Part shown: positions 1-13,492 of the stretch, in pieces
How the letters are laid out: each line of letters starts with the position of its first letter
Numbering within the stretch: the first letter of the stretch is position 1
Assembly: GCF_000224335.1 (NCBI RefSeq)
Contig: NZ_AFXZ01000067.1
Span: 186,001-250,000 of the forward strand
Direction of reading: 5' to 3'
From: Bizionia argentinensis JUB59
Lineage (GTDB): Bacteria; Bacteroidota; Bacteroidia; Flavobacteriales; Flavobacteriaceae
DNA: 64,000 nucleotides
Made by a program: the position numbers and the translations under genes
The notes under the pieces: generated by a model
Databases searched by the model: none
What the model was told of the DNA's origin: nothing
The model's input: only the letters and a program-made list of their open reading frames with translations

Positions 1-187
1 GGAGCGATAGGTATTTTATAATTTTCATAACTGATTGTTTTTTAGGTGCAATTTACAACAAAAAGTGAAGTTCGTAAAACTTCGTTTCTTAACGTCTTTT
101 GTAAGATTTCTATTCAAAAGGATTATGAGCAAGCTACTTATCATATTATTAACAATTCTTAAACTTATAGAAATCAAAAAAATTGTG

Positions 188-270
188 TAGCTTTGTATTC
201 ATATCTCGTGGAAGCGGGATTTTTGTATGCTGAACAGATTTGGTGCTAGCTAATATTTGTTTTCAGCATT
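188..270 (+). promoter_or_regulatory. greA promoter and structured leader
   Basis: TAGCTTTG at 188-195 matches the flavobacterial -7 element TAnnTTTG. The leader that follows carries a short hairpin (202-219, six pairs including a T-G wobble) with a T run after it, then an 8-bp stem ATGCTGAA / TTCAGCAT (227-234 with 262-269) followed by TTTTTTATT. Each looks like a weak intrinsic terminator placed ahead of the greA start at 299, so attenuation is possible. No clear -33 TTG was seen. The role is inferred from structure only. Confidence 0.4.
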
Positions 271-298
271 TTTTATTATTATTATAAATCATAAAATT

Positions 299-772
299 AT
301 GAGTAAAATATCTTATTACACCGCCGAGGGGTTAAAGAAATTACGTGATGATCTGCGCCAATTAAAGGATGTTGAGCGCTCAAAAGCATCACAAGCTATT
401 GGAGAAGCTAGAGATAAAGGAGATTTAAGTGAAAACGCTGAATATGATGCCGCCAAAGAAGCACAAGGTATGTTAGAAATGAGAATTTCGAAACTAGAAG
501 GTGTTTTAGCTGGAGCACGCCTTATTGATGAATCGCAATTAGACCTAACGAAAGCTTTGGTGCTTTCTAAAGTGAGAATTAAAAACCAAACCAATGGTGT
601 GGAAGTTATATATACATTGGTTGCCGATGGTGAAGCAGATTTAGCTTCAGGTAAAATATCGGTTAACTCTCCAATTGGAAAAGGTTTGCTAGGCAAATCG
701 GTTGGCGATGTTGCCGAAGTGCACGTGCCAAGTGGGATCATTAAGTTTGATGTTCTAGAAATATCTAGATAA
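299..772 (+). CDS. greA: Transcription elongation factor GreA
   Basis: The 157-residue product has the standard GreA length when the ATG at 299 (MSKISYYTAEGLKKLRDDL) is used; an upstream in-frame ATG at 257 would add a meaningless hydrophobic stretch inside the leader hairpin. GreA enters the RNA polymerase secondary channel and stimulates cleavage of backtracked transcripts. The N-terminal coiled coil carries the acidic tip GDLSENAEYDAAKE, with the aspartate and glutamate needed for cleavage. The C-terminal half holds the FKBP-like fold with the SPIGKGLLGKSVGD signature. A HIT-family gene follows, separated by a strong terminator. Confidence 0.97.
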   Translation: MSKISYYTAEGLKKLRDDLRQLKDVERSKASQAIGEARDKGDLSENAEYDAAKEAQGMLEMRISKLEGVLAGARLIDESQLDLTKALVLSKVRIKNQTNGVEVIYTLVADGEADLASGKISVNSPIGKGLLGKSVGDVAEVHVPSGIIKFDVLEISR

Positions 773-903
773 AATTCCTACGTCTACCTGTCAGTTAACA
801 TGAAAGTAGGTAAACTGAAAATTAGTGAAGCTAATCTGCTAATAAAGTAGAAATAGCCGCTGTTTTAACACACGATCTCCGGAAAAAAAGTATTCAATAT
901 ACT

Positions 904-941
904 AACAGCGACATGTTAATCCAACATGTCGCTGTTTTTTT
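904..941 (+). terminator. Intrinsic terminator after greA
   Basis: A perfect 14-bp stem (904-917 with 923-936) closes a 5-base loop and runs into a T tract. The greA to HIT gap (773-1074) also holds weak partial repeats near 788-815, but no other gene was seen in it. Confidence 0.85.
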
Positions 942-1074
942 ATACCATAACCCTAACTTTATTTTGGTTCTTAAGCGTATTTCATTTACTTATAATTTGT
1001 AAAAATTTGGTATGGATGATTCTTTGCATGTCAGGAATCTTGTTATATTTACAGGTATATCAATAATAGAAGCT

Positions 1075-1464
1075 ATGGCATCACTATTTACAAAAATTAT
1101 TAATGGCGAAGTTCCGTGTTATAAAATTGCGGAAACAGACGATTATTTCGCATTTTTAGATATTAACCCCAATGCTAAAGGACATACACTCTGTATTCCT
1201 AAGCAGGAAGTAGATAAATTATTTGATTTAGATGAGGTAGGTTATCACGGTTTGATGGAGTTTTCCAGACAAATTGCATTGGCTATAGAAAAAGCAGTGC
1301 CTTGCAAACGTGTGGGAATGACAGTTATAGGATTGGAAGTACCACATGCACATGTGCATTTAATTCCACTAAACTCAATGGATGATGCTCGATTTATGAC
1401 TAAAGAAACATTAACGGAACAAGATTTTGAAGCGGTTGCTGAAGCTATTCGAGCCCACTTATAA
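1075..1464 (+). CDS. HIT family nucleotide-binding hydrolase
   Basis: This is a 129-residue histidine-triad protein of the Hint branch: small cytosolic hydrolases or transferases acting on nucleotide phosphoramidates and similar AMP-linked substrates. The triad HAHVHL places histidines at residues 91, 93 and 95, with the central one expected to be the nucleophile. The N-terminal SLFTKIINGEVPCYKI is the usual Hint opening, so the ATG at 1075 is preferred over one 63 bases upstream. Its last bases overlap the 3' end of the convergent gene. The physiological substrate is unknown. Confidence 0.93.
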   Translation: MASLFTKIINGEVPCYKIAETDDYFAFLDINPNAKGHTLCIPKQEVDKLFDLDEVGYHGLMEFSRQIALAIEKAVPCKRVGMTVIGLEVPHAHVHLIPLNSMDDARFMTKETLTEQDFEAVAEAIRAHL

Positions 1465-1812
1465 ATTAGTAAGGTATATAGTTACAGCAATAGCAATTAC
1501 TATAATTCCAACTAGAGTGCCAATGGCAATATAAGCAGATCTTTTTAGTTTTAAAGATGCTTTTTTAGGTTCAAATGCGCGTTGGTGATAATCAAAAACA
1601 CGATCAATATCATCTGTCCAGTTTATGGGGTATATAGCTGTTTCACAGGTTTTACAAAATAACTGATGAGCAGTTTCACTAGTTAATGTTTTGTAAAAAC
1701 GTGTGTCCTTAAATTTTTGCTTAAAAGTAAGTTGCAAACCATTAGTGTTATAACACTCTGGGCAGTTATTATTAATAGCAACTTCTTTAATAGTAATAAA
1801 TTGATCGTCCAT
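1459..1812 (-). CDS. Small zinc-ribbon membrane protein, unknown function
   Basis: I do not recognise a named family. The 117-residue product has two CxxC pairs (C17/C20 and C53/C56), which fits a zinc ribbon, and one C-terminal transmembrane helix at about residues 93-114 ending a few residues before the stop. That suggests a tail-anchored protein with a cytosolic metal-binding head. It starts 2 bases after the stop of the upstream sensor kinase on the same strand, so the two are almost certainly co-transcribed and may work together. Confidence 0.75.
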   Translation of the reverse strand: MDDQFITIKEVAINNNCPECYNTNGLQLTFKQKFKDTRFYKTLTSETAHQLFCKTCETAIYPINWTDDIDRVFDYHQRAFEPKKASLKLKRSAYIAIGTLVGIIVIAIAVTIYLTNL

Positions 1813-1814
1813 AC

Positions 1815-3005
1815 TTAAATAGATTTAAAAACGATTTGCATGCTGGTTCCTTTATCAATTTCAGATTCAAGCACATGAATTTTACCATTATGGAATTCTT
1901 CTATAATACGCTTGGCTAACGATAAACCTAATCCCCAACCCCGTTTTTTAGTTGTAAATCCAGGTTCAAAGATACGTTTAAATTGCGTTCTAGAAAGCCC
2001 TTTTCCACTATCTATAATGGTTATTTTTACGTTGTCTTCTAATTGGGAGATCTGGATAATTAATTTGCCTTTTCCACGCATAGCATCTATAGCATTTTTC
2101 ACTATATTTTCAATTGTCCAGCTGTACAGCTGCTTATTTAATTGGACATAAATAGGATTTTCAGGAACTGATATTTCAAATTGAATGAGTTTGGATGACC
2201 GTGTTTTTAAATAATCGTAAGACTCTAAAGTTTCGGCTACAATATCTGCTTTTTCTAATTTTGGCAAAGAACCAATTTTACTAAAGCGCTCGGTAATAGT
2301 TTGCAAGCGACTAATGTCTTTTTCTATTTCAGTTATATATTCAGGATTAACGTGTTCTATTTTTAAAATTTCCGTCCAACCAATTAAAGAGGATAATGGC
2401 GTACCAATTTGATGTGCAGTTTCCTTGGCCATACCAGACCATAATTTGTTTTGAGTGGCAATTTTTGTGCTTCGGTAAAAGAAATATGCAACCGCCCCAA
2501 ATAATATGATAATGAGTAGGAGTGCGAGAGGATAATATTTTAGTTTAGTTATTAAGGGTGAGTTGCCATAATATAGATAACCATCATGTACTTTTTGATT
2601 CGTTTTGGGGTCAATATAAGAAAATTCAATAGGTACATTTTCAGCTGTTAATTGTTCTATTAGTTTTTTTGTACTCGTTTCATTTTTCAGGCTTTTATCT
2701 TCTATATTATTAGTTAATCCAACGGCTCCAGCTTTATCTACAACAATAATTTTGTTGTCATTTGCACTGATTAAAACACGGGCAACCATTGGGTTTACAT
2801 CATCTTCTAACATGTTTTTTTGAAATTCAATTTGAGCATATGCCCAGATATCCATTTTCTGTCGTTGTTCTTCTTTAAAATATTGAAAGAACACAAAAGT
2901 GTTCCACAGAATAAGGGATATAATAACAAAACTGGCGGCAACAATAATCCAATGAGTAAGGTTTCGGTATTTATAAAAAAGCATAGGTATAGTTTGTAAT
3001 GTCAA
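1815..3005 (-). CDS. Sensor histidine kinase
   Basis: The 396-residue kinase has an N-terminal transmembrane helix (about 18-40), an extracytoplasmic sensor region of about 115 residues, a second helix (about 158-178), a dimerisation domain with the phosphoacceptor histidine in AKETAHQIGTPLSSL, and a C-terminal HATPase domain with N box (ENIVKNAIDAM), DSGKGL and GWGLGLSLAKRI boxes. The QIGTPL H box is the variant common in Bacteroidota kinases. A second possible start lies at 2984. No response regulator is adjacent; its only operon partner is the small zinc-ribbon protein. The signal sensed is unknown. Confidence 0.9.
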   Translation of the reverse strand: MTLQTIPMLFYKYRNLTHWIIVAASFVIISLILWNTFVFFQYFKEEQRQKMDIWAYAQIEFQKNMLEDDVNPMVARVLISANDNKIIVVDKAGAVGLTNNIEDKSLKNETSTKKLIEQLTAENVPIEFSYIDPKTNQKVHDGYLYYGNSPLITKLKYYPLALLLIIILFGAVAYFFYRSTKIATQNKLWSGMAKETAHQIGTPLSSLIGWTEILKIEHVNPEYITEIEKDISRLQTITERFSKIGSLPKLEKADIVAETLESYDYLKTRSSKLIQFEISVPENPIYVQLNKQLYSWTIENIVKNAIDAMRGKGKLIIQISQLEDNVKITIIDSGKGLSRTQFKRIFEPGFTTKKRGWGLGLSLAKRIIEEFHNGKIHVLESEIDKGTSMQIVFKSI

Positions 3006-3105
3006 TATAATGGAAATCTGTTAATAATATTGTGTGAGATGCCTAGCAAATCGTTTTTAGTTCATTCTTAGATTAATTACATTTGTACAAAATTATAAAG
3101 TACCC

Positions 3106-3975
3106 ATGATTTCATACGAACCTAATCAGTTATCAACAGGCAAGTTGCATAGTTATTTGTTAAGTGCCGTAGCGCCAAGGCCTATAGCTTTTGCTAGTAC
3201 GATTGATGCGGATGGAAATCCAAATTTATCGCCATTTAGTTTTTTTAATGTTTTTAGTGCAAATCCGCCGATTATGGTTTTTTCACCAGCACGTCGTGTT
3301 CGTGATAATACGACTAAACATACATTAGAAAATATATTAGCAACTAAAGAAGTCGTGATAAATGTGGTGAGTTTTGATATGGTTCAGCAAATGTCATTAA
3401 GTAGTACAGATTATCCTATAGGCGTAAATGAATTTGAAAAGGCTGGTTTTAATATGTTGAAATCGGATATTGTAAAACCATTTCGTGTTGCAGAATCGCC
3501 TGTTCAGTTTGAATGCAAGGTAAATGATATTATTCATCTTGGAACAGAAGGTGGCGCTGGAAATTTAATAATTTGCGAAGTTGTAAAATTACACATCGAA
3601 GAGGATGTTTTAGATGAAAATGATCAAATTAATCAAGAGAAATTGGATCTAGTATCTCGTGCTGGTGGAAGTTATTACAGCCGCGCTAAAAATGGCTTTT
3701 TTGAAATTCCGAAGCCATTAACAACATTAGGAATTGGTGTAGATGTTATGCCAGATCATGTAAAAAATAGCATGATTTTAACAGGGAACCAATTAGGTAT
3801 GTTAGGTAATGTAGAGAAATTGCCAACAGCCGAAGCTGTAAAGGAATTTTTGGAAACGGTTAGTCAGAACCATCCAAATATTAAGGAAGCTTCACACAGA
3901 AATAAACATAAATTGGCACAAAACTATTTAAGCTTCGGCGATTTAGATAGTGCCTGGAAAATATTATTATCATAA
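3106..3975 (+). CDS. Flavin reductase-like FMN-binding protein
   Basis: The 289-residue protein belongs to the flavin reductase-like split-barrel family, which binds FMN and often reduces free flavin or serves as an oxidoreductase. The FMN-binding core is in the first 200 residues, including SAVAPRPIAFASTIDADGNP and the NLSPFSFFNVFSANPP segment; a longer C-terminal extension is usual in flavobacteria. TACATTTG at 3078-3085 is a good -7 promoter element 20 bases before the ATG. It is followed after 22 bases by a DUF3127 gene. The actual substrate cannot be told from sequence. Confidence 0.88.
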   Translation: MISYEPNQLSTGKLHSYLLSAVAPRPIAFASTIDADGNPNLSPFSFFNVFSANPPIMVFSPARRVRDNTTKHTLENILATKEVVINVVSFDMVQQMSLSSTDYPIGVNEFEKAGFNMLKSDIVKPFRVAESPVQFECKVNDIIHLGTEGGAGNLIICEVVKLHIEEDVLDENDQINQEKLDLVSRAGGSYYSRAKNGFFEIPKPLTTLGIGVDVMPDHVKNSMILTGNQLGMLGNVEKLPTAEAVKEFLETVSQNHPNIKEASHRNKHKLAQNYLSFGDLDSAWKILLS

Positions 3976-3997
3976 CACAGAAAATCAAATTTTAACA

Positions 3998-4375
3998 ATG
4001 GAAGTACAAGGAAGAATTAAAGTTATTGGTGAAACTCAATCGTTTGGTAGCAATGGCTTTAGAAAAAGAGAAGTAGTCGTTACAACAGAAGAGCAGTACC
4101 CACAAACTATAATGGTTGAATTTGTTCAAGATAAAACGGATTTATTAAACAGCTATCAAGTAGGACAGCAAGTAAAAATAAATATTAACTTACGCGGTAG
4201 AGAATGGGTTAACCCACAAGGTGAAACTAAATATTTTAACTCTATTCAGGGATGGCGTATTGAAGTAGCTCAAGCAGATGCTTCAAGTCCAGAAATGCCA
4301 CCTGTTCCACCAGCACAAGCTTTTGAGCCTGCTAGCGATTTGAACGAAGAAGATAACGACGATTTACCATTTTAA
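3998..4375 (+). CDS. DUF3127 protein with an SSB-like acidic C-terminal tail
   Basis: The 125-residue product starts at the ATG at 3998 (MEVQGRIKVIGETQSFGSNG); an in-frame upstream start at 3950 would lie inside the flavin reductase gene. Residues 1-95 match DUF3127, a Bacteroidota family whose strand-rich pattern (GRIKVI, REVVVTT, MVEFVQDK, VKININLRGREW) is compatible with an OB fold. After a Pro/Ala-rich linker the protein ends EEDNDDLPF, very like the acidic DDDIPF tip by which single-stranded DNA-binding proteins recruit repair and replication partners. The function has not been assigned; a DNA-associated role is inference. Confidence 0.85.
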   Translation: MEVQGRIKVIGETQSFGSNGFRKREVVVTTEEQYPQTIMVEFVQDKTDLLNSYQVGQQVKININLRGREWVNPQGETKYFNSIQGWRIEVAQADASSPEMPPVPPAQAFEPASDLNEEDNDDLPF

Positions 4376-4398
4376 TTAGTGACTAATCACGTATAATA

Positions 4399-4429
4399 AA
4401 CCTCAACGTTTTACTGCGTTGAGGTTTTT
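4399..4429 (+). terminator. Intrinsic terminator after the DUF3127 gene
   Basis: A 10-bp stem (AACCTCAACG at 4399-4408 with 4417-4426) has an 8-base loop and a T tract. It separates the flavin reductase/DUF3127 pair from aat. Confidence 0.8.
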
Positions 4430-4449
4430 GATTTTTAAGATTAAAATTT

Positions 4450-5076
4450 ATGCAATTTCTCAATCAAGATTTATGGTTTCCCGATGTTAGCCAATCTGAT
4501 GCCGATGGTTTTTTGGCTATGGGTAGCGATTTATCTGTTGAGCGCTTACTCCTCGCCTATAAATCAGGGATATTTCCGTGGTTTGAAGCCGGACAGCCTG
4601 TTTTGTGGTGGTCGCCAGATCCACGATTTGTATTATTTCCAGAGAAGTTGAAAGTTTCTAAAAGTATGAAACAGGTGTTGCGAAATGCTGATTTTACCGT
4701 TTCAATAAATCAAGATTTTAATCAGGTTATTACGGAATGTTCACGAGTAAAACGATCTGGTCAAGCTGGCACTTGGATTACAGATAGTATGATTGCTGCT
4801 TATAATGAACTGCATATAACAGGTTATGCCAAATCGGTAGAAGTATGGCAAAACGATGAATTGGTGGGCGGATTCTATGGAATAGATTTAGGAAACGGCA
4901 TTTTTTGTGGCGAAAGTATGTTTGCTAAGGTCAGCAATGCTAGTAAAGTGGCTTTTATAACCTTTATCCAAAACACTAATTATAAGTTAATTGATTGCCA
5001 GGTTTACACCAATCATTTGGAAAGATTGGGTGCGGAAGAGATTGCTAGAGAATCGTTTTTGGCGTATTTAAAGTAA
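4450..5076 (+). CDS. aat: Leucyl/phenylalanyl-tRNA--protein transferase
   Basis: The 208-residue cytosolic enzyme moves Leu or Phe from aminoacyl-tRNA to proteins with N-terminal Arg or Lys, marking them for the N-end rule protease ClpAP/ClpS. The family signatures are clear: LLAYKSGIFPWFE, VLWWSPDPRF, the central AGTWITDSM block, and GNGIFCGESMF. The length matches the family. It sits just after a terminator and converges on tag. Confidence 0.96.
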   Translation: MQFLNQDLWFPDVSQSDADGFLAMGSDLSVERLLLAYKSGIFPWFEAGQPVLWWSPDPRFVLFPEKLKVSKSMKQVLRNADFTVSINQDFNQVITECSRVKRSGQAGTWITDSMIAAYNELHITGYAKSVEVWQNDELVGGFYGIDLGNGIFCGESMFAKVSNASKVAFITFIQNTNYKLIDCQVYTNHLERLGAEEIARESFLAYLK

Positions 5077-5116
5077 TTTTAGTCTAGTTTGGCAAAATTC
5101 CTGTTGTAGCCCGCGT

Positions 5117-5680
5117 TTAAACTTCTTCATTTCTAAAGCAAGCCACTTCATGATCATTAACTAAACCTACAGCCTGCATAAAAGCATACATTACAGTAGA
5201 ACCTACAAATTTAAAACCACGTGTATTTAAGTCTTTACTCAACGTATCCGAAATTGCCGTTGTAGTGGCTGCTTCTTTGTAATTTTCTACATTATTTTTT
5301 ATGGGTTTATTATTTACAAAGCGCCATAAATAGTTGCTGAAACTTCCAAATTCCTCTTGAACTTCCATAAATAGCCTTGCATTAGTAACGGTGCCATTTA
5401 CTTTTAGTTTATTTCTAACAATACCAGTATCTTGCAATAAACTATCAATTTTTGGTTGCTGATAGTTTGCTATCTTTTTATAGTTGAAATCATCAAAAGC
5501 ATCTCTGAAATTTTCACGCTTTCGTAAAATAGTAATCCAACTTAACCCTGCCTGAAAAGTTTCCAATACTAAAAATTCAAAAAGAATCGCATCATCATAA
5601 ACTGGAACACCCCATTCTTTGTCGTGATAGGCTTCGAATAAATCATCTCCAACACACCATCCGCATCTATGCTTTTTCAT
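5117..5680 (-). CDS. tag: DNA-3-methyladenine glycosylase I
   Basis: The 187-residue base-excision repair enzyme removes 3-methyladenine from alkylated DNA. It has the TAG-type zinc snap: C6 and H19 at the N terminus (CGWC, then YHDKEWGVP) and the HEVAC His-x3-Cys near the C terminus. The FQAGLSWITILRKRENFRDAF block is the helix-hairpin-helix glycosylase core of this family. It is transcribed toward aat. Together with the alkyltransferase-like protein near 34.6 kb it gives this window two alkylation-repair genes. Confidence 0.96.
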   Translation of the reverse strand: MKKHRCGWCVGDDLFEAYHDKEWGVPVYDDAILFEFLVLETFQAGLSWITILRKRENFRDAFDDFNYKKIANYQQPKIDSLLQDTGIVRNKLKVNGTVTNARLFMEVQEEFGSFSNYLWRFVNNKPIKNNVENYKEAATTTAISDTLSKDLNTRGFKFVGSTVMYAFMQAVGLVNDHEVACFRNEEV

Positions 5681-5848
5681 AAAAATAAAAATTGTAAGTT
5701 TTCAACTTAAAGATAGACATAGATATGATATAAATCATAAGTTAAGAAGGTGAAACTTATTATTTTTGACCATGCTATGTAATAAAGGTTACCATTAGCA
5801 ATAAGATAAGACTGTACCTTTGTAGTAATATAAAATGAAATAAATTCT

Positions 5849-6469
5849 ATGGAAACTTTGAATACAACTGACATTTCAGATATCATTAAAGCAAGTTTAA
5901 AAACGAGTTATACGTACCCTGATTATCGCGATTTGGTAATAAATTTGGTCGCTAATGAATCGACCACCGGTAACGACAAATCTGAAGACATGGTAGAATA
6001 TACCAAGCTGAACGATAGACGTATGAAGCGCTGGGATAAAACGGTTAAATTATCGGAAGATACTTTAATGCGTATTTCTAATTTTAAAGGAAACGCTACC
6101 TGGATTGTTATTACAGAAAGTTGGTGTGGAGATGCTGCTCATGTGGTGCCTGCCATCCATAAAGTAGCCGAGCAAAGCGATCATATCGATTTAAAACTAG
6201 TGCTGCGTGATACGAATGAAGCGCTTATGAACCAATTTCTAACCAATGGCGGAAAATCTGTTCCTAAACTAATTATGATTGACACGGAAACGATTGAGGT
6301 TTTAAATACTTATGGGCCTCGACCAGCAGCTGCCAATAAATTAGTAGCTGATTATAAAGCGAAACATGGTGAAATAACAGCAGAGATTAAAGAAGATCTG
6401 CAAGTCTGGTACAACAACGATAAAGGTCAGAGTACTATTGAAGATTTACTTCAAATGTTAGGCGTTTAA
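5849..6469 (+). CDS. Thioredoxin-fold protein with a single active-site cysteine
   Basis: The 206-residue protein belongs to the thioredoxin superfamily. The active-site loop reads TESWCGDAAHVVPAI, so the second cysteine of the usual CxxC is replaced by alanine; a classical disulfide exchange is unlikely. The cis-proline strand (GGKSVPKLIMID) and following helix are present. It has no signal peptide, which suggests a cytosolic monothiol or structural role. TACCTTTG at 5815-5822 is a good -7 promoter element. It converges on the TonB-like gene with a 4-base overlap. Confidence 0.85.
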   Translation: METLNTTDISDIIKASLKTSYTYPDYRDLVINLVANESTTGNDKSEDMVEYTKLNDRRMKRWDKTVKLSEDTLMRISNFKGNATWIVITESWCGDAAHVVPAIHKVAEQSDHIDLKLVLRDTNEALMNQFLTNGGKSVPKLIMIDTETIEVLNTYGPRPAAANKLVADYKAKHGEITAEIKEDLQVWYNNDKGQSTIEDLLQMLGV

Positions 6470-7188
6470 CGCTTGCCTTCAAAATAAAAAGTAATAGAGC
6501 CGAGTTGCGTTTTTTTAGAATTATCTATACTGAAACGCGACTCATTGGCATATTCAATAGCGTGTTCATGTAAGCAATCATTGTTGACAGAGGCAGCTTT
6601 GTTAATCGTTGATTTAGTAACAATTCCTTTATTATTTACGGCAATATTTACGACTACTTTTCCCCCTACATCGCACAGGTAAATTGGCGTTGGTAAATAT
6701 TTATGCGTTCTCCCCACCAATGAATAATGCATGCTACTTTTGTTGTTAACCGATTGTGCGGCTAAATTTCCTTGCTGTTGTTTAAGCACGGCATTTGCCT
6801 CGTTATATGAGGTCATTAAATCTTCATTTATTTCAGAACTGAACCCTTCTCCTGTATCTTCACTCGTGGTTTCTTCTGTGGCAGTATCTGGCTTGGTATA
6901 TTCGTAATCTTTAGGCGGAGCAATTGGCTGATAAGCTTGGCTGAATTTCTTATAGTCTTCGGTTTCGTTATAAGCTTTATTGGTTTCGGCTTTTTCAGTC
7001 TGTTCAGCTGCTATTTTCTCCAAGGTTTCGGCTTCTAATTCTTTTTCAGTTTTAGGTTCCATTACATAATAGCTTTCTGCAAGTTTTTCGCGGTGTTGCG
7101 TAATATGAAAGCCAAATAGCATCATTAAAACCGTTGCCGAAATCAGGGCTGTAAGAAGGATTGCTTTATGTTGATCTGAAATGTTCAA
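6466..7188 (-). CDS. TonB-like energy-transducer family protein
   Basis: The 240-residue protein has one N-terminal membrane anchor (about residues 9-27), a long Glu/Lys/Thr-rich periplasmic spacer with some proline, and a C-terminal domain (last 75 residues, from PTPIYLCDVGGKVVVNIAV) resembling the TonB C-terminal fold that contacts outer-membrane receptors. No ExbB or ExbD gene is adjacent. It lies upstream on the other side of an envelope-biosynthesis set on the same strand. It could also be an orphan TonB-like protein with another periplasmic role. Confidence 0.75.
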   Translation of the reverse strand: MNISDQHKAILLTALISATVLMMLFGFHITQHREKLAESYYVMEPKTEKELEAETLEKIAAEQTEKAETNKAYNETEDYKKFSQAYQPIAPPKDYEYTKPDTATEETTSEDTGEGFSSEINEDLMTSYNEANAVLKQQQGNLAAQSVNNKSSMHYSLVGRTHKYLPTPIYLCDVGGKVVVNIAVNNKGIVTKSTINKAASVNNDCLHEHAIEYANESRFSIDNSKKTQLGSITFYFEGKR

Positions 7189-7246
7189 TGTTTGTGAAAT
7201 ATCTTTTTTAATAGTTAAATATCAGATTAATATACAAAAAAAGTAG

Positions 7247-7942
7247 CTATTTAGTTGCTATGCTTTTAATAAATGCTTCTGGTGAAAGTGCTTTATCCAC
7301 ATGGAAATCACCAATTTTGGTTCGTCGCAAAACCGATAAATGACCACCAGAACTCAAGGCTTTTCCAAAATCGTGTGCTATGGAACGAATATAAGTTCCT
7401 TTCCCACAAACAATGCGAAAATCGATATTTAAGTCTTTAATTTTGGTGATTTCAAAAGTTGAAATATGAATCTTACGCGAATTAATTTCGACTTCTTCAC
7501 CAGCACGTGCATATTCATAAAGACGTTTTCCTTCTTTTTTGAGAGCCGAAAAAACAGGTGGAAATTGATCGATATCACCAATAAACTGCTTGGTAGCTTC
7601 ATGAATCATTGTTTCTGTAATATGCTCGGTTGGAAAAGTAGTATCTATTTCGGTCTCTAAATCATAAGACGGCGTAGTGCCGCCCAAAACAATCGTGCCG
7701 GTGTATTCCTTATCTTGACCTTGAAAGGAGTCTATTTGCTTGGTCATTTTCCCTGTACAAATAATAAGTAAACCTGTAGCCAAAGGATCTAAAGTGCCCG
7801 CATGGCCAACTTTTATTTTCTTAATATCAAAGGCGTTACGTATTTCCCATCGTAGCTTGTTAACGGCTTGAAAAGAGGTCCAGTTTAAAGGTTTGTCTAT
7901 GAGTAAAACTTGTCCGGAAAGATAATCTTCAGCTGTTAGCAT
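7247..7942 (-). CDS. truB: tRNA pseudouridine(55) synthase
   Basis: The 231-residue enzyme isomerises U55 in the T arm of tRNAs. The start motif LLIDKPLNWTSFQAVNKLR and the catalytic block KVGHAGTLDPLATGLL, with the nucleophilic aspartate, are intact. RIVCGKGTYIRSIAHDFG is the usual TruB C-terminal motif. It directly abuts uppP on the same strand, with no gap, and belongs to the ftsX-DUF3098-uppP-truB order seen in Bacteroidota. Confidence 0.97.
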   Translation of the reverse strand: MLTAEDYLSGQVLLIDKPLNWTSFQAVNKLRWEIRNAFDIKKIKVGHAGTLDPLATGLLIICTGKMTKQIDSFQGQDKEYTGTIVLGGTTPSYDLETEIDTTFPTEHITETMIHEATKQFIGDIDQFPPVFSALKKEGKRLYEYARAGEEVEINSRKIHISTFEITKIKDLNIDFRIVCGKGTYIRSIAHDFGKALSSGGHLSVLRRTKIGDFHVDKALSPEAFIKSIATK

Positions 7943-8755
7943 TTAGATAGTGGTTAGAGGGAAAATAAAGTAATGAATTACAAATAAAGCGATACCTACA
8001 ACAATCCTATAATAACCGAAGATTTTAAATCCTTTTTTGCTTAAATAATCTATAAATGATTTAATAGCAATTAAAGAAACAATAAAAGCTATAACATTTC
8101 CAAGGATTAAATAATTGATTTGGTCGCTATTTAGTTCAAAACCTGCGTTGTAATAATCGAATAATTTTTTTGCTGTAGCACCGAACATGGTTGGTACAGC
8201 TAGAAAGAATGAAAATTCGGCAGCTGTTTTTCTATTCAGTTTTTGTGTCATACCACCTACAATAGATGCGCCACTTCTTGAGGTTCCTGGAATCATAGCC
8301 AAACATTGAAAAAATCCAATTTTTAAGGCAGTTGCATAACTTATTTCTGTGTGTGCTGTGGGATTTTTTTCGTCTTCTATTTCATTTGCTGCAAACCAAT
8401 CATCTACTTTTAATAAGATAAAACCACCAATAATTAAGGAGGTAGCAACTATTAATGGGCTTTCTAAAAGACCATCAATTACATCGTTTAGTAGCAGGCC
8501 TAGAATAACTGCAGGAATAAAAGCCACTAATAATTTATAGTAAAAATCCATACTTTGAAAAAAGCGTTTCCAATATAAAACAACTACGGCTAAAATAGCA
8601 CCCAGTTGAATAACAATAGTGAAAAGCTTGGTGAAATCGTCACTGGCAATTTTCATAAATGATGAAGCAATAATCATATGCCCTGTTGAAGATACTGGTA
8701 AGTACTCCGTAATACCTTCAATAATTGCGAGTATAATAGCGTCTAATAAATCCAT
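7943..8755 (-). CDS. uppP: Undecaprenyl-diphosphate phosphatase
   Basis: The 270-residue polytopic membrane enzyme dephosphorylates undecaprenyl pyrophosphate to recycle the lipid carrier for peptidoglycan and surface glycans; it also gives bacitracin tolerance. Signature motifs are [16 protein letters not shown] near the N terminus and [16 protein letters not shown] in the middle. I start it at the ATG at 8755 ([14 protein letters not shown]), since the ten residues before it are not family-like. It is packed against truB. Confidence 0.96.
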
Positions 8756-8832
8756 GTAGAAAAGTAATCGATAGTTAGGCAGCAAACTCTATTTGTAAAC
8801 AGAATTTGATTGTAAAAAAGGAATGTTTAAAG

Positions 8833-9102
8833 TTATTGATTTGAGCTTTTAGCTTTATTTGGGTTCAGTAAAATAGCGTAAATTTCGATGGCAAATCCTA
8901 ACAGTACTAATGTTGGTGCCAAACGAATACGACGAAAGCTGAATATTTCGGGGTTAAAAAAATTGGGGTCGTCATGTCCACCACCCGACATAAGAATAAA
9001 TCCTAGAGCAATACAGGCTAAACCTATTAGCATGAATTTATAGTTTTTTCTTCCGAAAACAAATTCGGTTTTTGTGTCTGATTTTTGTTTTTGTTCGCCC
9101 AT
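8833..9102 (-). CDS. DUF3098 small membrane protein
   Basis: The 89-residue protein has two transmembrane helices (about residues 24-41 and 60-80) separated by a short loop GGGHDDPNFFNPEIFSFRR, which is the DUF3098 pattern. The family is restricted to Bacteroidota and has no established function. Its fixed place between ftsX and uppP suggests a part in cell-envelope growth or division, which is inference from neighbourhood only. Confidence 0.88.
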   Translation of the reverse strand: MGEQKQKSDTKTEFVFGRKNYKFMLIGLACIALGFILMSGGGHDDPNFFNPEIFSFRRIRLAPTLVLLGFAIEIYAILLNPNKAKSSNQ

Positions 9103-9385
9103 AATTCGTAATTAATTTTCTGAAATTTTAAATCCAGATAAAAATTCTTTAAAAATAGTGTCATTGAAGTGCTAAGTGCAGCATGTTTTACCATACACAC
9201 AGCTAATTTTTTCAATCTCTGCAAAGTAACTGAATTATTTAAAACTTTCACGTTAAGAGAATCGAAATTTAACTAGCCTTCAAAACCCGAATTTATATAA
9301 TAAATTAAGCAAATGCTGAAGGCTAAAATAGTCGGGTTTAATGAGGTTTCTTTAATTTCTAAAAGTGCTTTTAATCCTTACTTTT

Positions 9386-10264
9386 TTAATAATATAACTG
9401 ATCGGTTTTTAAATTCAAGAATCGTTGGGTTGCAATAAATGTGCTGATCCATGTAATAATTACGCCTAAAACAAATATGGTCATAAATAAAACACCCAAT
9501 AGAATTCTGTTATTTAAAAGCTCTAATTCCGGGAAAGTTTTATCAATGTAATAAAGCACAATTGCCATACCTGTGATTGCTAAAACAGCGCCAATAACCC
9601 CTAGTCGAACACTTTTCCATACAAATGGACGTCTAATAAATTGTTTGGTAGCACCAACCATTTGCATGGTTTTAATGGTGAAACGTTTGGAGTAAATTGA
9701 TAAACGAATTGAACTATTAATTAATAATACTGCAATAAGTGTAAATAAACCACTGATAACTAAAATCCAAAAGCTGATTTTTTTAACGTTGTCATTCATC
9801 AAATTAACTAGATCATTATCGTAACGGACTTCATCCACAAAGTTTTTGCTAAGTGCTTCTTGGGCAATAATATCTAATTGCTCTGCGGTGACAAAATCTG
9901 CTTTTACATGAACATCAATAGAGTTTTGTAGTGGATTAAAACCTAAAAAAGCCATAAAATCTTCGCCGTTTTCTGCTTTCATAGATTCGGCAGCCTGTTC
10001 TTTGGAAACAAATTCTGTCGATTTTACATAATCGGACATCGCTAGGCTTTTTTCTAACTGTTTTGTTTCAACGTCTTTGGCTGTATCTTTCAAGTAAATG
10101 GTAACAACTACCTGCTCTTTAAAATGATCAGATACTTTTTTTGCATTTAAAACAAGCATCCCCAACAAACCTAAAAGGAATAAAACCAACCCAATACTTA
10201 ATACCACTGAAAAATAAGATGATATTAAACGGCGTTTTTGATAATTTTCAAAAGATGAACTCAT
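9386..10264 (-). CDS. ftsX: Cell division protein FtsX
   Basis: The 292-residue integral membrane protein has the FtsX plan: a cytosolic N terminus, one helix (about 21-43), an extracellular domain of about 110 residues, then three helices including the conserved TIKTMQMVGATKQFIRRPFVWKS coupling segment. FtsX pairs with the ATPase FtsE to regulate septal peptidoglycan hydrolases. ftsE is not in the window. It is divergent from leuS, with about 200 bases between their starts. Confidence 0.95.
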   Translation of the reverse strand: MSSSFENYQKRRLISSYFSVVLSIGLVLFLLGLLGMLVLNAKKVSDHFKEQVVVTIYLKDTAKDVETKQLEKSLAMSDYVKSTEFVSKEQAAESMKAENGEDFMAFLGFNPLQNSIDVHVKADFVTAEQLDIIAQEALSKNFVDEVRYDNDLVNLMNDNVKKISFWILVISGLFTLIAVLLINSSIRLSIYSKRFTIKTMQMVGATKQFIRRPFVWKSVRLGVIGAVLAITGMAIVLYYIDKTFPELELLNNRILLGVLFMTIFVLGVIITWISTFIATQRFLNLKTDQLYY

Positions 10265-10466
10265 AAATTTAGATACGTTAATGCTGTAAAAATATGAAAG
10301 AAATCCTATTCCTTTAGGATTACAACGTTTAAACTTTCAACATTGTTATAATAAGTTTAAATTTGCGCTCCTAAAAGGAATGATTGCTAGGATAAATACC
10401 AGGTAATTTGATGCCGAAATCCTTAAGCTTATTTGTTTAGGACCTTTAATATTTAGAACAATATAG

Positions 10467-13400
10467 ATGCAATATAATTTTAACGACATAGAAGCCAAGT
10501 GGCAAAAGTATTGGGCAGAAAACGAAACGTTTAAAGCCGAAAATCAATCCGAAAAACCCAAGTATTATGTTTTGGATATGTTTCCGTATCCAAGTGGTGC
10601 TGGACTACATGTTGGACATCCGCTAGGTTATATTGCCAGCGATATATATGCGCGTTATAAACGTCATAAAGGTTTTAATGTATTGCATCCACAAGGTTAT
10701 GATAGCTTTGGTTTACCGGCAGAGCAATACGCTATTCAAACGGGTCAGCATCCTGCGGTTACGACAGAAGAAAACATTAAAACCTACAGACGTCAGCTAG
10801 ATCAAATAGGATTTTCATTTGATTGGAGTCGAGAAGTACGCACATCGGATCCTAGTTATTATAAATGGACACAGTGGATTTTTATTCAATTATTCGAGTC
10901 TTGGTATAATAATGATACGCAAAAAGCAGAAGCAATAGATACGTTGATTTCGAAATTTTCTTCGGAAGGAAATGCTACTGTTAACGCCGTTTGTGATGAT
11001 CATATTGAAGCGTTTACTGCAGACGTGTGGAATAGCTTTTCATCAGGAAAACAACAAGAAATATTATTACAATATCGGTTAACTTATTTAGCAGAAACCG
11101 AAGTAAATTGGTGTCCGGGATTAGGAACCGTTTTAGCTAATGATGAAATTATTAATGGCGTTTCCGAACGCGGAAGTCACTCAGTTGTTAGAAAAAAAAT
11201 GACCCAATGGTCTATGCGAATTTCTGCTTATGCGGAACGTTTACTCCAAGGCCTAGATACGATTGACTGGACGGATTCCTTAAAGGAAAGTCAGCGAAAT
11301 TGGATTGGGAAATCGATAGGTTCTTCTGTTTCCTTTAAAATTATTGTTGAAAATAATAATTTTAAAGGAAACATCGAAGTTTTTACAACACGTCCTGATA
11401 CCATTTTCGGTGTGAGTTTTATGACACTAGCACCAGAACACGAATTAGTGTCTGTAATTACTACGCCAGAACAAAAAGATGCAGTTGCCGCTTATATTGA
11501 AAAATCAGCAAAAAGAAGTGAGCGTGATCGTATGGCCGATGTAAAAACCATTTCTGGTGTATTTACCGGTGCTTATGCGGAGCATCCTTTTTCTAAAGAG
11601 CCAATTCCAATTTGGATTGGCGATTACGTCTTGGCAGGTTATGGAACTGGCGCAGTAATGTCTGTTCCTTGTGGTGATCAACGTGATTACGATTTTGCAA
11701 AACATTTTAATATTCCTATTCCTAATATTTTTGAAGGAGTAGATATTTCTGAAGAAGCTTTTTCAGATAAGGAGAAAACGGTTATTACTAATTCTGATTT
11801 TTAAATGGTTTCCCGTATAAAAAAGCTTCAAAACGTGCTATTTTCGAATTGGAAAAAATAGGCCAAGGCCAAGGAAAAACAAATTATCGCTTACGTGATG
11901 CAGTGTTTTCCAGACAACGTTATTGGGGCGAACCATTTCCTGTTTATTATGTAAATGGTATGCCGCAGATGATTGATAAAGAACATCTGCCAATTCGTTT
12001 ACCAAATGTAGAAAAGTACTTGCCAACCGAAACTGGTGAGCCGCCTTTAGGTCGTGCTGATGTTTGGGCTTGGGACGCTGATAAAAATGAAGTGGTTAGC
12101 AATGAACTGATAGATAATAAAACGGTGTTTCCTCTAGAATTGAACACTATGCCAGGTTGGGCGGGAAGCTCTTGGTATTTCTTTAGATATATGGATGCGC
12201 AGAACGACTTGGACTTTGCAAGTGAAGATGCACTCAAATATTGGGAAAATGTCGATTTATATATTGGTGGTAGCGAGCATGCTACAGGTCATTTATTATA
12301 CTCGCGTTTTTGGGTGAAGTTTATGAAAGATCGTGGTTTTGTTGAAATTGAAGAGCCTTTTAAAAAGCTGATAAACCAAGGGATGATTTTGGGCACAAGT
12401 GCTTATGTTTATAGGTTGAGCTATATGTTTCTTGATCCTAAAGTTGAGGAAGTAGTTGGGGCCAAACTATTAAAGAAATTACAAAATATTTTTATTTCGC
12501 ATTCAGATTTTATTAGTAAAGGAGATTTAGCATCGGATAAAGACGCTTTAAAAGAACTTAAAAATACGCTTGCAGAAATTGCTGGTTTACCAAATGCTGA
12601 TACACTAGAGAATTTAATAGTTGTACCACTACCTATTCATGTAAAAGTACAATATGTAAATGCGTCTGATGAATTGGATATTGAAGGTTTAAAAAATGAC
12701 GGTGAATTTGGTTCAGATTATAAAGACGCGATTTTTATAGGAGAAAACGGCAAAGTTATTTCTTCTGAAAATGATTTAGGAGTGGCTTATAAAGTGGGTC
12801 GTGAGGTCGAAAAAATGTCTAAATCCAAATATAACGTTGTAAGTCCAGATAGTATTTGTCAGGATTACGGCGCAGATAGTTTAAGACTTTACGAAATGTT
12901 TTTAGGCCCATTAGAACAATATAAGCCATGGAATACAGCTGGTATTTCCGGTGTTCACGGTTTCCTTAAAAAACTATGGAAATTGTATGTTGATGATAAT
13001 GGCATTAAAGTAACGGATTCTGAACCGACAAAAGATGCTTTAAAAACATTACATAAAACCATTAAAAAAGTAGAAGAAGATATTGAGAGTTTTTCATTCA
13101 ATACATCTGTATCTACGTTTATGATTGCTGTTAACGAATTAACAGCCCAGAAATGTACAAGTCGTGCTATTTTAGAACCGCTTATTGTTTTAATGTCGCC
13201 GTATGCGCCGCATATTGCTGAAGAATTATGGAGTCAGTTGGGTTATGAAGAGTCTATTTCAATAACAGATTACCCAAAATTTGAAGCCAAGCATTTGGTG
13301 GAGAGCAGTAAAAATTATCCAATCTCCTTTAATGGTAAAATGCGTTTTACATTAGAGTTGCCTATGGATATGAGTAAAGAGGATATTGAGAAAGCCGTAA

Positions 13401-13492
13401 TGGCTCACGAAAAAACAATAGCACAACTGGAAGGTCGTACGCCGAAAAAAGTGATTGTCGTTCCTGGGAAGATTGTAAATATAGTCGGGTAA
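10467..13492 (+). CDS. leuS: Leucine--tRNA ligase, interrupted by a one-base frameshift
   Basis: Two adjoining reading frames together make one class I LeuRS. The first (445 residues, to the TAA at 11802-11804) has the HVGH form of HIGH at residues 48-51 and most of the CP1 editing domain. The second carries RYWGEPFPVYY, the KMSKS loop at 12812-12826 and the anticodon-binding end. At the break the T run 11798-11802 has five bases; six would restore ITNSDFLNGFPYKKASKR, the expected family sequence, with no residue lost. leuS is essential and no second copy is seen here, so a sequencing error in a homopolymer is the simplest explanation. A segment of about 60 residues (12430-12620) before KMSKS looks longer than in relatives I know. 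Confidence 0.93.

Follow-up and report, generated by a model that had tools for sequence, protein, structure and literature searches.

Bacterial DNA repair is organised by the C-terminal tips of SSB, and a small protein of the DUF3127 family encoded by Bizionia argentinensis JUB59 was observed to end in a tip of the same type. The question raised by this locus is whether such a protein could represent a second SSB-type hub in Bacteroidota. The gene lies in the window, i.e. the whole stretch of 64,000 nucleotides that was analysed (contig NZ_AFXZ01000067.1, positions 186,001 to 250,000 of the forward strand). The following features were annotated, with positions counted from the first letter of the window:

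3106..3975, + strand: flavin reductase-like gene, 22 nt upstream of the DUF3127 gene and with no evident functional link to it (PF01613, E 8.8e-22)
3998..4375, + strand: DUF3127 gene, 125 aa plus stop (translation; PF11325, E 3.8e-31; PHROG 4932, E 6.9e-48)
3998..4267, + strand: predicted OB-fold core, residues 1-90 (AlphaFold2, Foldseek, VIA-align)
4268..4345, + strand: linker, residues 91-116, variable, of low confidence and probably disordered (pLDDT, conservation)
4346..4372, + strand: SSB-type acidic tip EEDNDDLPF, residues 117-125 (family conservation; the same DDLPF on an SSB of the same genome)
4399..4426, + strand: terminator-like element (hairpin with a downstream T run) in the gap that separates aat from the DUF3127 gene (folding of 4376-4449)
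4450..5076, + strand: aat, leucyl/phenylalanyl-tRNA-protein transferase, with no evident functional link to DUF3127 (TIGR00667 over its cut-off; PF03588)

The DUF3127 protein and its acidic tip

Translation from the ATG at 3998 to the stop codon at 4373-4375 yielded the 125-residue protein ending in EEDNDDLPF that a preliminary description of this DNA had reported, while the opposite strand is interrupted by several stops. The window protein was assigned to PF11325 (DUF3127) with 107.6 bits (cut-off 27), covering profile positions 1-85 of 85, and also matched PHROG 4932 over its full length (protein residues 1-125, profile positions 1-117 of 117). The source genome harbours this single DUF3127 gene and two SSB genes (PF00436). 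One of these SSBs, of 157 residues, terminates in PKDDLPF, and since both proteins end in DDLPF, their tips are alike within one cell. The second SSB (L113:1486-1821; 111 residues) ends without any acidic tip.

To establish how widely the tip is shared, a cellular set (n=258), composed of the 81 closest relatives (own locus included) and members from a phylum-wide genome scan, and a viral set of 115 DUF3127 proteins were analysed. For the phylum-wide members, 178 loci were fetched out of about 226 matches, the remainder being mostly near relatives; locus L221, which has no family match, was dropped, and two SSBs that matched the DUF3127 profile through tail and linker (locus L112 and an ORF of L075) were removed before counting. 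A tail was scored when a PF end was preceded by at least two D/E among the six residues before it. This tail was present in 252 of the 258 cellular members (PF end in 253), compared with 1.05 expected when the last 35 residues of these members were shuffled. It was found in 172/178 of the fetched phylum-wide members and in 28 of 29 family-level groups, in 26 of which every fetched copy carries it. Among viral members, 100/115 possess the tail and 106/115 the PF end; in three further proteins a single residue follows the PF, and one protein is truncated at a contig end. When cellular and viral members were pooled and thinned to 62% identity, the tail was retained in 74/80. The resemblance to the SSB tip, previously noted for one protein, is thus a trait of the family, and a chance or one-off tail was ruled out by the shuffles and by the breadth across groups.

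Furthermore, the last five residues were DDLPF in all 81 closest relatives, in which they are encoded by 30 distinct 15-nt strings. Conservation among these relatives was 1.00 for the tip, 0.94 for the core and 0.75 for linker residues 91-117, and the combination of an invariant peptide, many codon strings and a drifting linker is indicative of selection on the peptide rather than on the DNA. The same DDLPF terminates all 27 Bacteroidota SSBs whose ends were read among 30 loci; an ORF on the opposite strand of L389 was spurious and was left out of this comparison.

Departures from this pattern were confined to a few groups. The three fetched copies of group f13 (L201, L207 and L208) have lost the PF end and the tail, with the core being kept; the classical SSB of one f13 genome (L402) still ends in DDDLPF. 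Groups f7 and f11 include extra tail-less copies (tail in 1/2 and 4/6, respectively), among them L219 and L220, and L204 retains QPF without acidic residues. In one f11 genome (G373), three additional DUF3127 copies have open frames 102-105 residues long; the two that were fetched (L219 and L220) lack the tail and lie amid unnamed genes, possibly on mobile elements. The DUF3127 tip of group f18 (e.g. L245, L249 and L110) frequently takes another form, such as DDCPF or DGDMPF, whereas the SSBs of these genomes retain KDDLPF, suggesting that one tip cannot always stand in for the other; this drift is a hint of client specialisation.

Predicted OB fold and relationship to SSB

An AlphaFold2 model of the window protein, built on 76 sequences, comprised strands at residues 2-10, 21-30, 37-43, 58-71 and 77-90, a short strand at 14-16 and a helix at 44-52, in agreement with the strand-rich core described earlier. 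Block-mean pLDDT values were 92-97 for residues 1-90 and 47-58 beyond residue 90. The best 50 Foldseek matches in the PDB were all SSBs (top E 4.5e-7), and VIA-align superposed the model on Salinibacter ruber SSB with a Z of 12.2 (90 residues, rmsd 2.6), with PriB chains scoring Z 10.7-11.6, tied with SSB. The OB fold that had been suggested for this core is therefore supported by prediction, as a fold of the bacterial SSB/PriB type. The same topology was predicted for a distant viral member (32 sequences, mean pLDDT 79.1), the structure matches of which were SSB, PriB and MCM OB domains (E from 7.6e-5), with PriB high in the list.

Across 80 thinned members, aromatic residues occupy positions F21, Y34, W70, Y79, F80 and W86 in 91-99%, and basic residues occupy K46, R68 and R87 in 90-91%; judged by sequence, these are the sort of positions that could stack on and hold ssDNA. 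Conversely, the mean net charge of the core (-0.3, n=80) is on average not basic, which argues against an SSB-like role. In a profile alignment, the R-x-W motif of the fourth SSB strand was aligned with R68-x-W70. The Trp of this motif is presumably Trp-88 of E. coli SSB. Trp-88 is listed among the base-stacking residues in the available part of PMC3991886.

The window protein fell below the PF00436 cut-off (13.3 bits against 26; E 0.089), and only 3 of 44 diverse DUF3127 members matched this profile at E ≤0.1 (best 2.6e-4). A phmmer search of the PDB with the window protein returned no relative. A profile of 76 members gave 16 PDB matches at E ≤10, 15 of them SSBs, with a single match under E 0.001, namely D. 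radiodurans SSB (E 5.8e-4); a 44-member profile gave ten weak matches including six SSBs (best E 0.0041). Profile-profile comparison of tail-less DUF3127 with Bacteroidota SSBs scored 67%, with none of 60 column shuffles exceeding 4.2%; the score was 80% for the 212-row majority, 7% for the 81 WGDK-type rows alone and 15% in global mode. At the level of sequence profiles, the link between the two families is real but weak. By the strict Pfam test DUF3127 is not a PF00436 SSB, yet it appears to be SSB-like in action. A translation-factor identity, as proposed by Pfam IF3_C (E 0.031), was rejected as the match is weak and below cut-off.

The predicted architecture of DUF3127 resembles that of bacterial SSBs such as E. 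coli SSB and Flavobacterium psychrophilum FpsSSB, i.e. a single OB fold, a flexible linker and an acidic tip ending in PF, although its core is shorter (about 90 versus 105-110 residues in SSB) and scores below the PF00436 cut-off. The Bacteroidota proteins FpsSSB and PtoSSB end in DLPF according to the part of PMC3991886 available, matching the end of the window protein. The family has been described as having no assigned function; this holds for Pfam, where it is a DUF, but not for PHROGs, where PHROG 4932 bears the name 'single strand DNA binding protein'. All 44 diverse cellular members match PHROG 4932, so that the two entries represent the same family. The PHROG name is a database label on phage proteins, for which no underlying functional test was found, and RefSeq phage entries also use it for DUF3127 proteins, whereas chromosomal members, in the records consulted, are entered as 'DUF3127 domain-containing protein'. 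The SSB idea is thus partly in databases already, with the chromosomal family still a DUF.

The literature searched contained no experiment on DUF3127, including any DNA- or client-binding measurement, no description of the chromosomal family and no occurrence of 'PF11325'; regarding a second SSB of Bacteroides, nothing was found beyond duplication of E. coli ssb. In the accessible portion of PMC8004638, gp25 of Pantoea phage AAS23 is described as an SSB with a DUF3127 superfamily match; an OB/PRK09010 domain is matched by gp25 as well. The tblastn matches listed for the window protein and for a distant member did not include gp25.

Distribution and genomic context

DUF3127 (PF11325) was detected in 218 of 392 sampled Bacteroidota genomes and, within the same class, in 102/105 genomes. 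From the other three it is absent both by PF11325 and by the 44-member profile, indicating that the gene is dispensable there. Classical SSB (PF00436) was present in 389/392 of the same genomes and in 216 of the 218 with DUF3127, which is therefore a separate gene, present in addition to SSB. Among 14 named control genomes, only a Bacteroides encodes DUF3127, and the named phage hosts among the matches listed are Bacteroidota. These results fit the specificity to Bacteroidota proposed earlier, with absence outside the phylum judged from the 13 control genomes without a match and from host names of phage records.

DUF3127 is also widespread in phages, with 130 phage records matching the window protein and 69 a distant member by tblastn. 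Neighbouring genes were examined in 83 non-redundant viral loci, clusters being named from one representative each. The commonest neighbour was a replication initiation/primosomal protein (31/83 loci), followed by NinG (17), Erf annealing protein (16), primase/helicase (15), helicase (14), exonuclease VIII (12), RecE/YqaJ exonuclease (12) and RecT (11); no function name could be given to cluster 10 (12 loci). The representative of the 31-locus cluster (L283:6894-7619) matches Pfam DUF6291 and PHROG primosomal/replication-initiation families, and DUF6291 is a candidate replication initiator of phages. For example, phage P12024L shows the gene order Erf annealing protein, YqaJ exonuclease and DUF3127, and RecT is located near DUF3127 in phi13:2, while Leeuwenhoekiella phage Arctus_1 has the order RecT, exonuclease and classical SSB. 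Two phage contigs of 274 and 369 kb (L288 and L289) each encode two DUF3127 proteins, the second being divergent.

SSB and DUF3127 nearly alternate in these phages. A PF00436 SSB was missing from 38 of 39 DUF3127 phage records picked among long contigs, although none of these was rated at least 90% complete, and the absence may in part reflect fragmentation. Conversely, four out of four SSB-bearing Bacteroidota phages lack DUF3127, and such phages often encode a classical SSB (80 Flavobacterium phage records). This near-alternation is expected if DUF3127 does the job of SSB there. In a tree of 143 sequences (95 columns), cellular and phage members were intermixed, with 17 changes between the two, at least five of which are forced by starred branches. 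Given the few columns, the few starred inner branches (19/140) and this mixing, the tree does not resolve the direction of transfer. The phage members compare, by description, with the SSB of phage HK620 (host E. coli), which the available part of PMC5928155 presents as the partner of the annealing protein Sak4 and which is likewise encoded near it.

Chromosomal neighbours, read within 1.5 or 3 kb of fetched loci, were less informative, and for the majority of copies were housekeeping genes without a link to DNA, which argues against an SSB-like role. Within Flavobacteriaceae, DUF3127 follows a flavin reductase gene and precedes aat, from which it is separated by a terminator-like hairpin; in the window, folding of 4376-4449 gave -21 kcal/mol (z -5.1; 0/200 shuffles as good), and Rfam produced no match in positions 1-12000. 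Flavobacteriaceae neighbours comprise GreA, HIT, histidine kinase, flavin reductase, Aat and methyladenine glycosylase genes. An operon-based function on the chromosome was rejected, as no DNA-repair operon is shared in this family and the hairpin parts the gene from aat. Among 178 cellular loci, aat was found near 35, exonuclease genes near six, RecQ near five (one at 32% identity) and dnaN near four; DnaA (five loci) and AlaRS (17) were recognised by eye only. DNA-related neighbours do occur: in Bacteroides finegoldii, DUF3127 is divergent to dnaN-exonuclease-coaBC-recN; dnaN adjoins all four main f11 copies; and in some f18 genomes RecQ lies upstream and an RNase_T-type exonuclease downstream, as in the L249 order RecQ-DUF3127-exonuclease. 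Locus L413 (NZ_OY725936.1, 'plasmid 34') carries dnaN, recN, coaBC, murB and rlmB, and resembles a piece of chromosome.

Proposed role and alternative explanations

Taken together, the predicted fold, the conserved tip, the co-occurrence with SSB and the phage context make it probable that DUF3127 is a second, Bacteroidota-type SSB, the OB core of which binds ssDNA and the tip of which recruits SSB clients. The N-terminal domain of ~90 residues, as a single SSB-type OB fold, would be expected to coat ssDNA, and the protein probably oligomerises, as SSB does. A flexible linker of 25-50 residues would present the tip (D/E-D-D-L-P-F), which could occupy, on RecO, RecQ, PriA and exonucleases, the basic and hydrophobic pockets that receive the SSB tip. 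For E. coli, the text available of PMC7145534 states that the isolated SSB tip suffices to bind RecO, PriA, PriC and chi, and that RecO accommodates the terminal Pro and Phe of this tip in a hydrophobic pocket. Similarly, the last six residues of HK620 SSB are reported, in the part of PMC5928155 available, to be needed for binding of Sak4 to SSB-covered ssDNA. The chromosomal protein would act beside classical SSB, for which division of labour, backup or a response to phages are candidate reasons, whereas the phage protein would usually fill the SSB slot and serve the annealing protein, exonuclease and primase/helicase. More tentatively, the class may possess two SSB-type hubs, with SSB serving the fork and the smaller-core DUF3127 serving gaps or recombination intermediates, both drawing on one contested client pool; phages may have repeatedly taken or given the second hub, thereby steering host RecO, RecQ or PriA as well as their own annealing proteins.

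The structural tie with PriB, its high rank among matches of the viral model and the primosomal protein as commonest phage neighbour would also suit an accessory OB protein resembling PriB, at work in replication restart or in a phage primosome, which binds ssDNA but mainly bridges a primase or helicase loader rather than serving as a general hub. DUF3127 nevertheless differs from PriB in its nearly universal SSB tip; PriB is not known to carry an SSB-type acidic tip. The best 50 Foldseek matches of the window protein were moreover all SSBs, and in phages DUF3127 also takes the position of SSB next to annealing proteins and exonucleases, rendering this explanation unlikely.

The tip itself, being more strictly conserved than the core and, in group f18, unlike that of the same-genome SSB, could alternatively belong to a tail carrier that does not bind ssDNA and competes with SSB for clients, thus tuning them, as would be compatible with a core charge near zero. 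Such a role is quite improbable given that conservation of the OB core is strong and extends to basic positions and to aromatics of the stacking type, and that phages place DUF3127 into ssDNA recombination cassettes instead of SSB. An RNA-binding OB protein of the cold-shock or translation type, with a tail only fortuitously similar to that of SSB, is hardly credible: its basis is the match to IF3_C together with NCBIfam infC (E 0.082), both far below cut-off, whereas the tail frequency is far above that of shuffles, the phage context is DNA replication and recombination, and the structure matches are SSB and PriB.

If DUF3127 is indeed a second SSB, models of repair and recombination built on one SSB would not transfer to Bacteroides, Flavobacterium and their relatives, a Pfam DUF would gain a function, and the protein would be a likely partner of phage annealing proteins for Bacteroidota recombineering tools.

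Elsewhere in the window, leuS (10467-13492) is interrupted around 11804-11849, where the reading frame changes and the gene falls into two ORFs, each matching TIGR00396 below cut-off, indicative of either a sequencing error or a real break.
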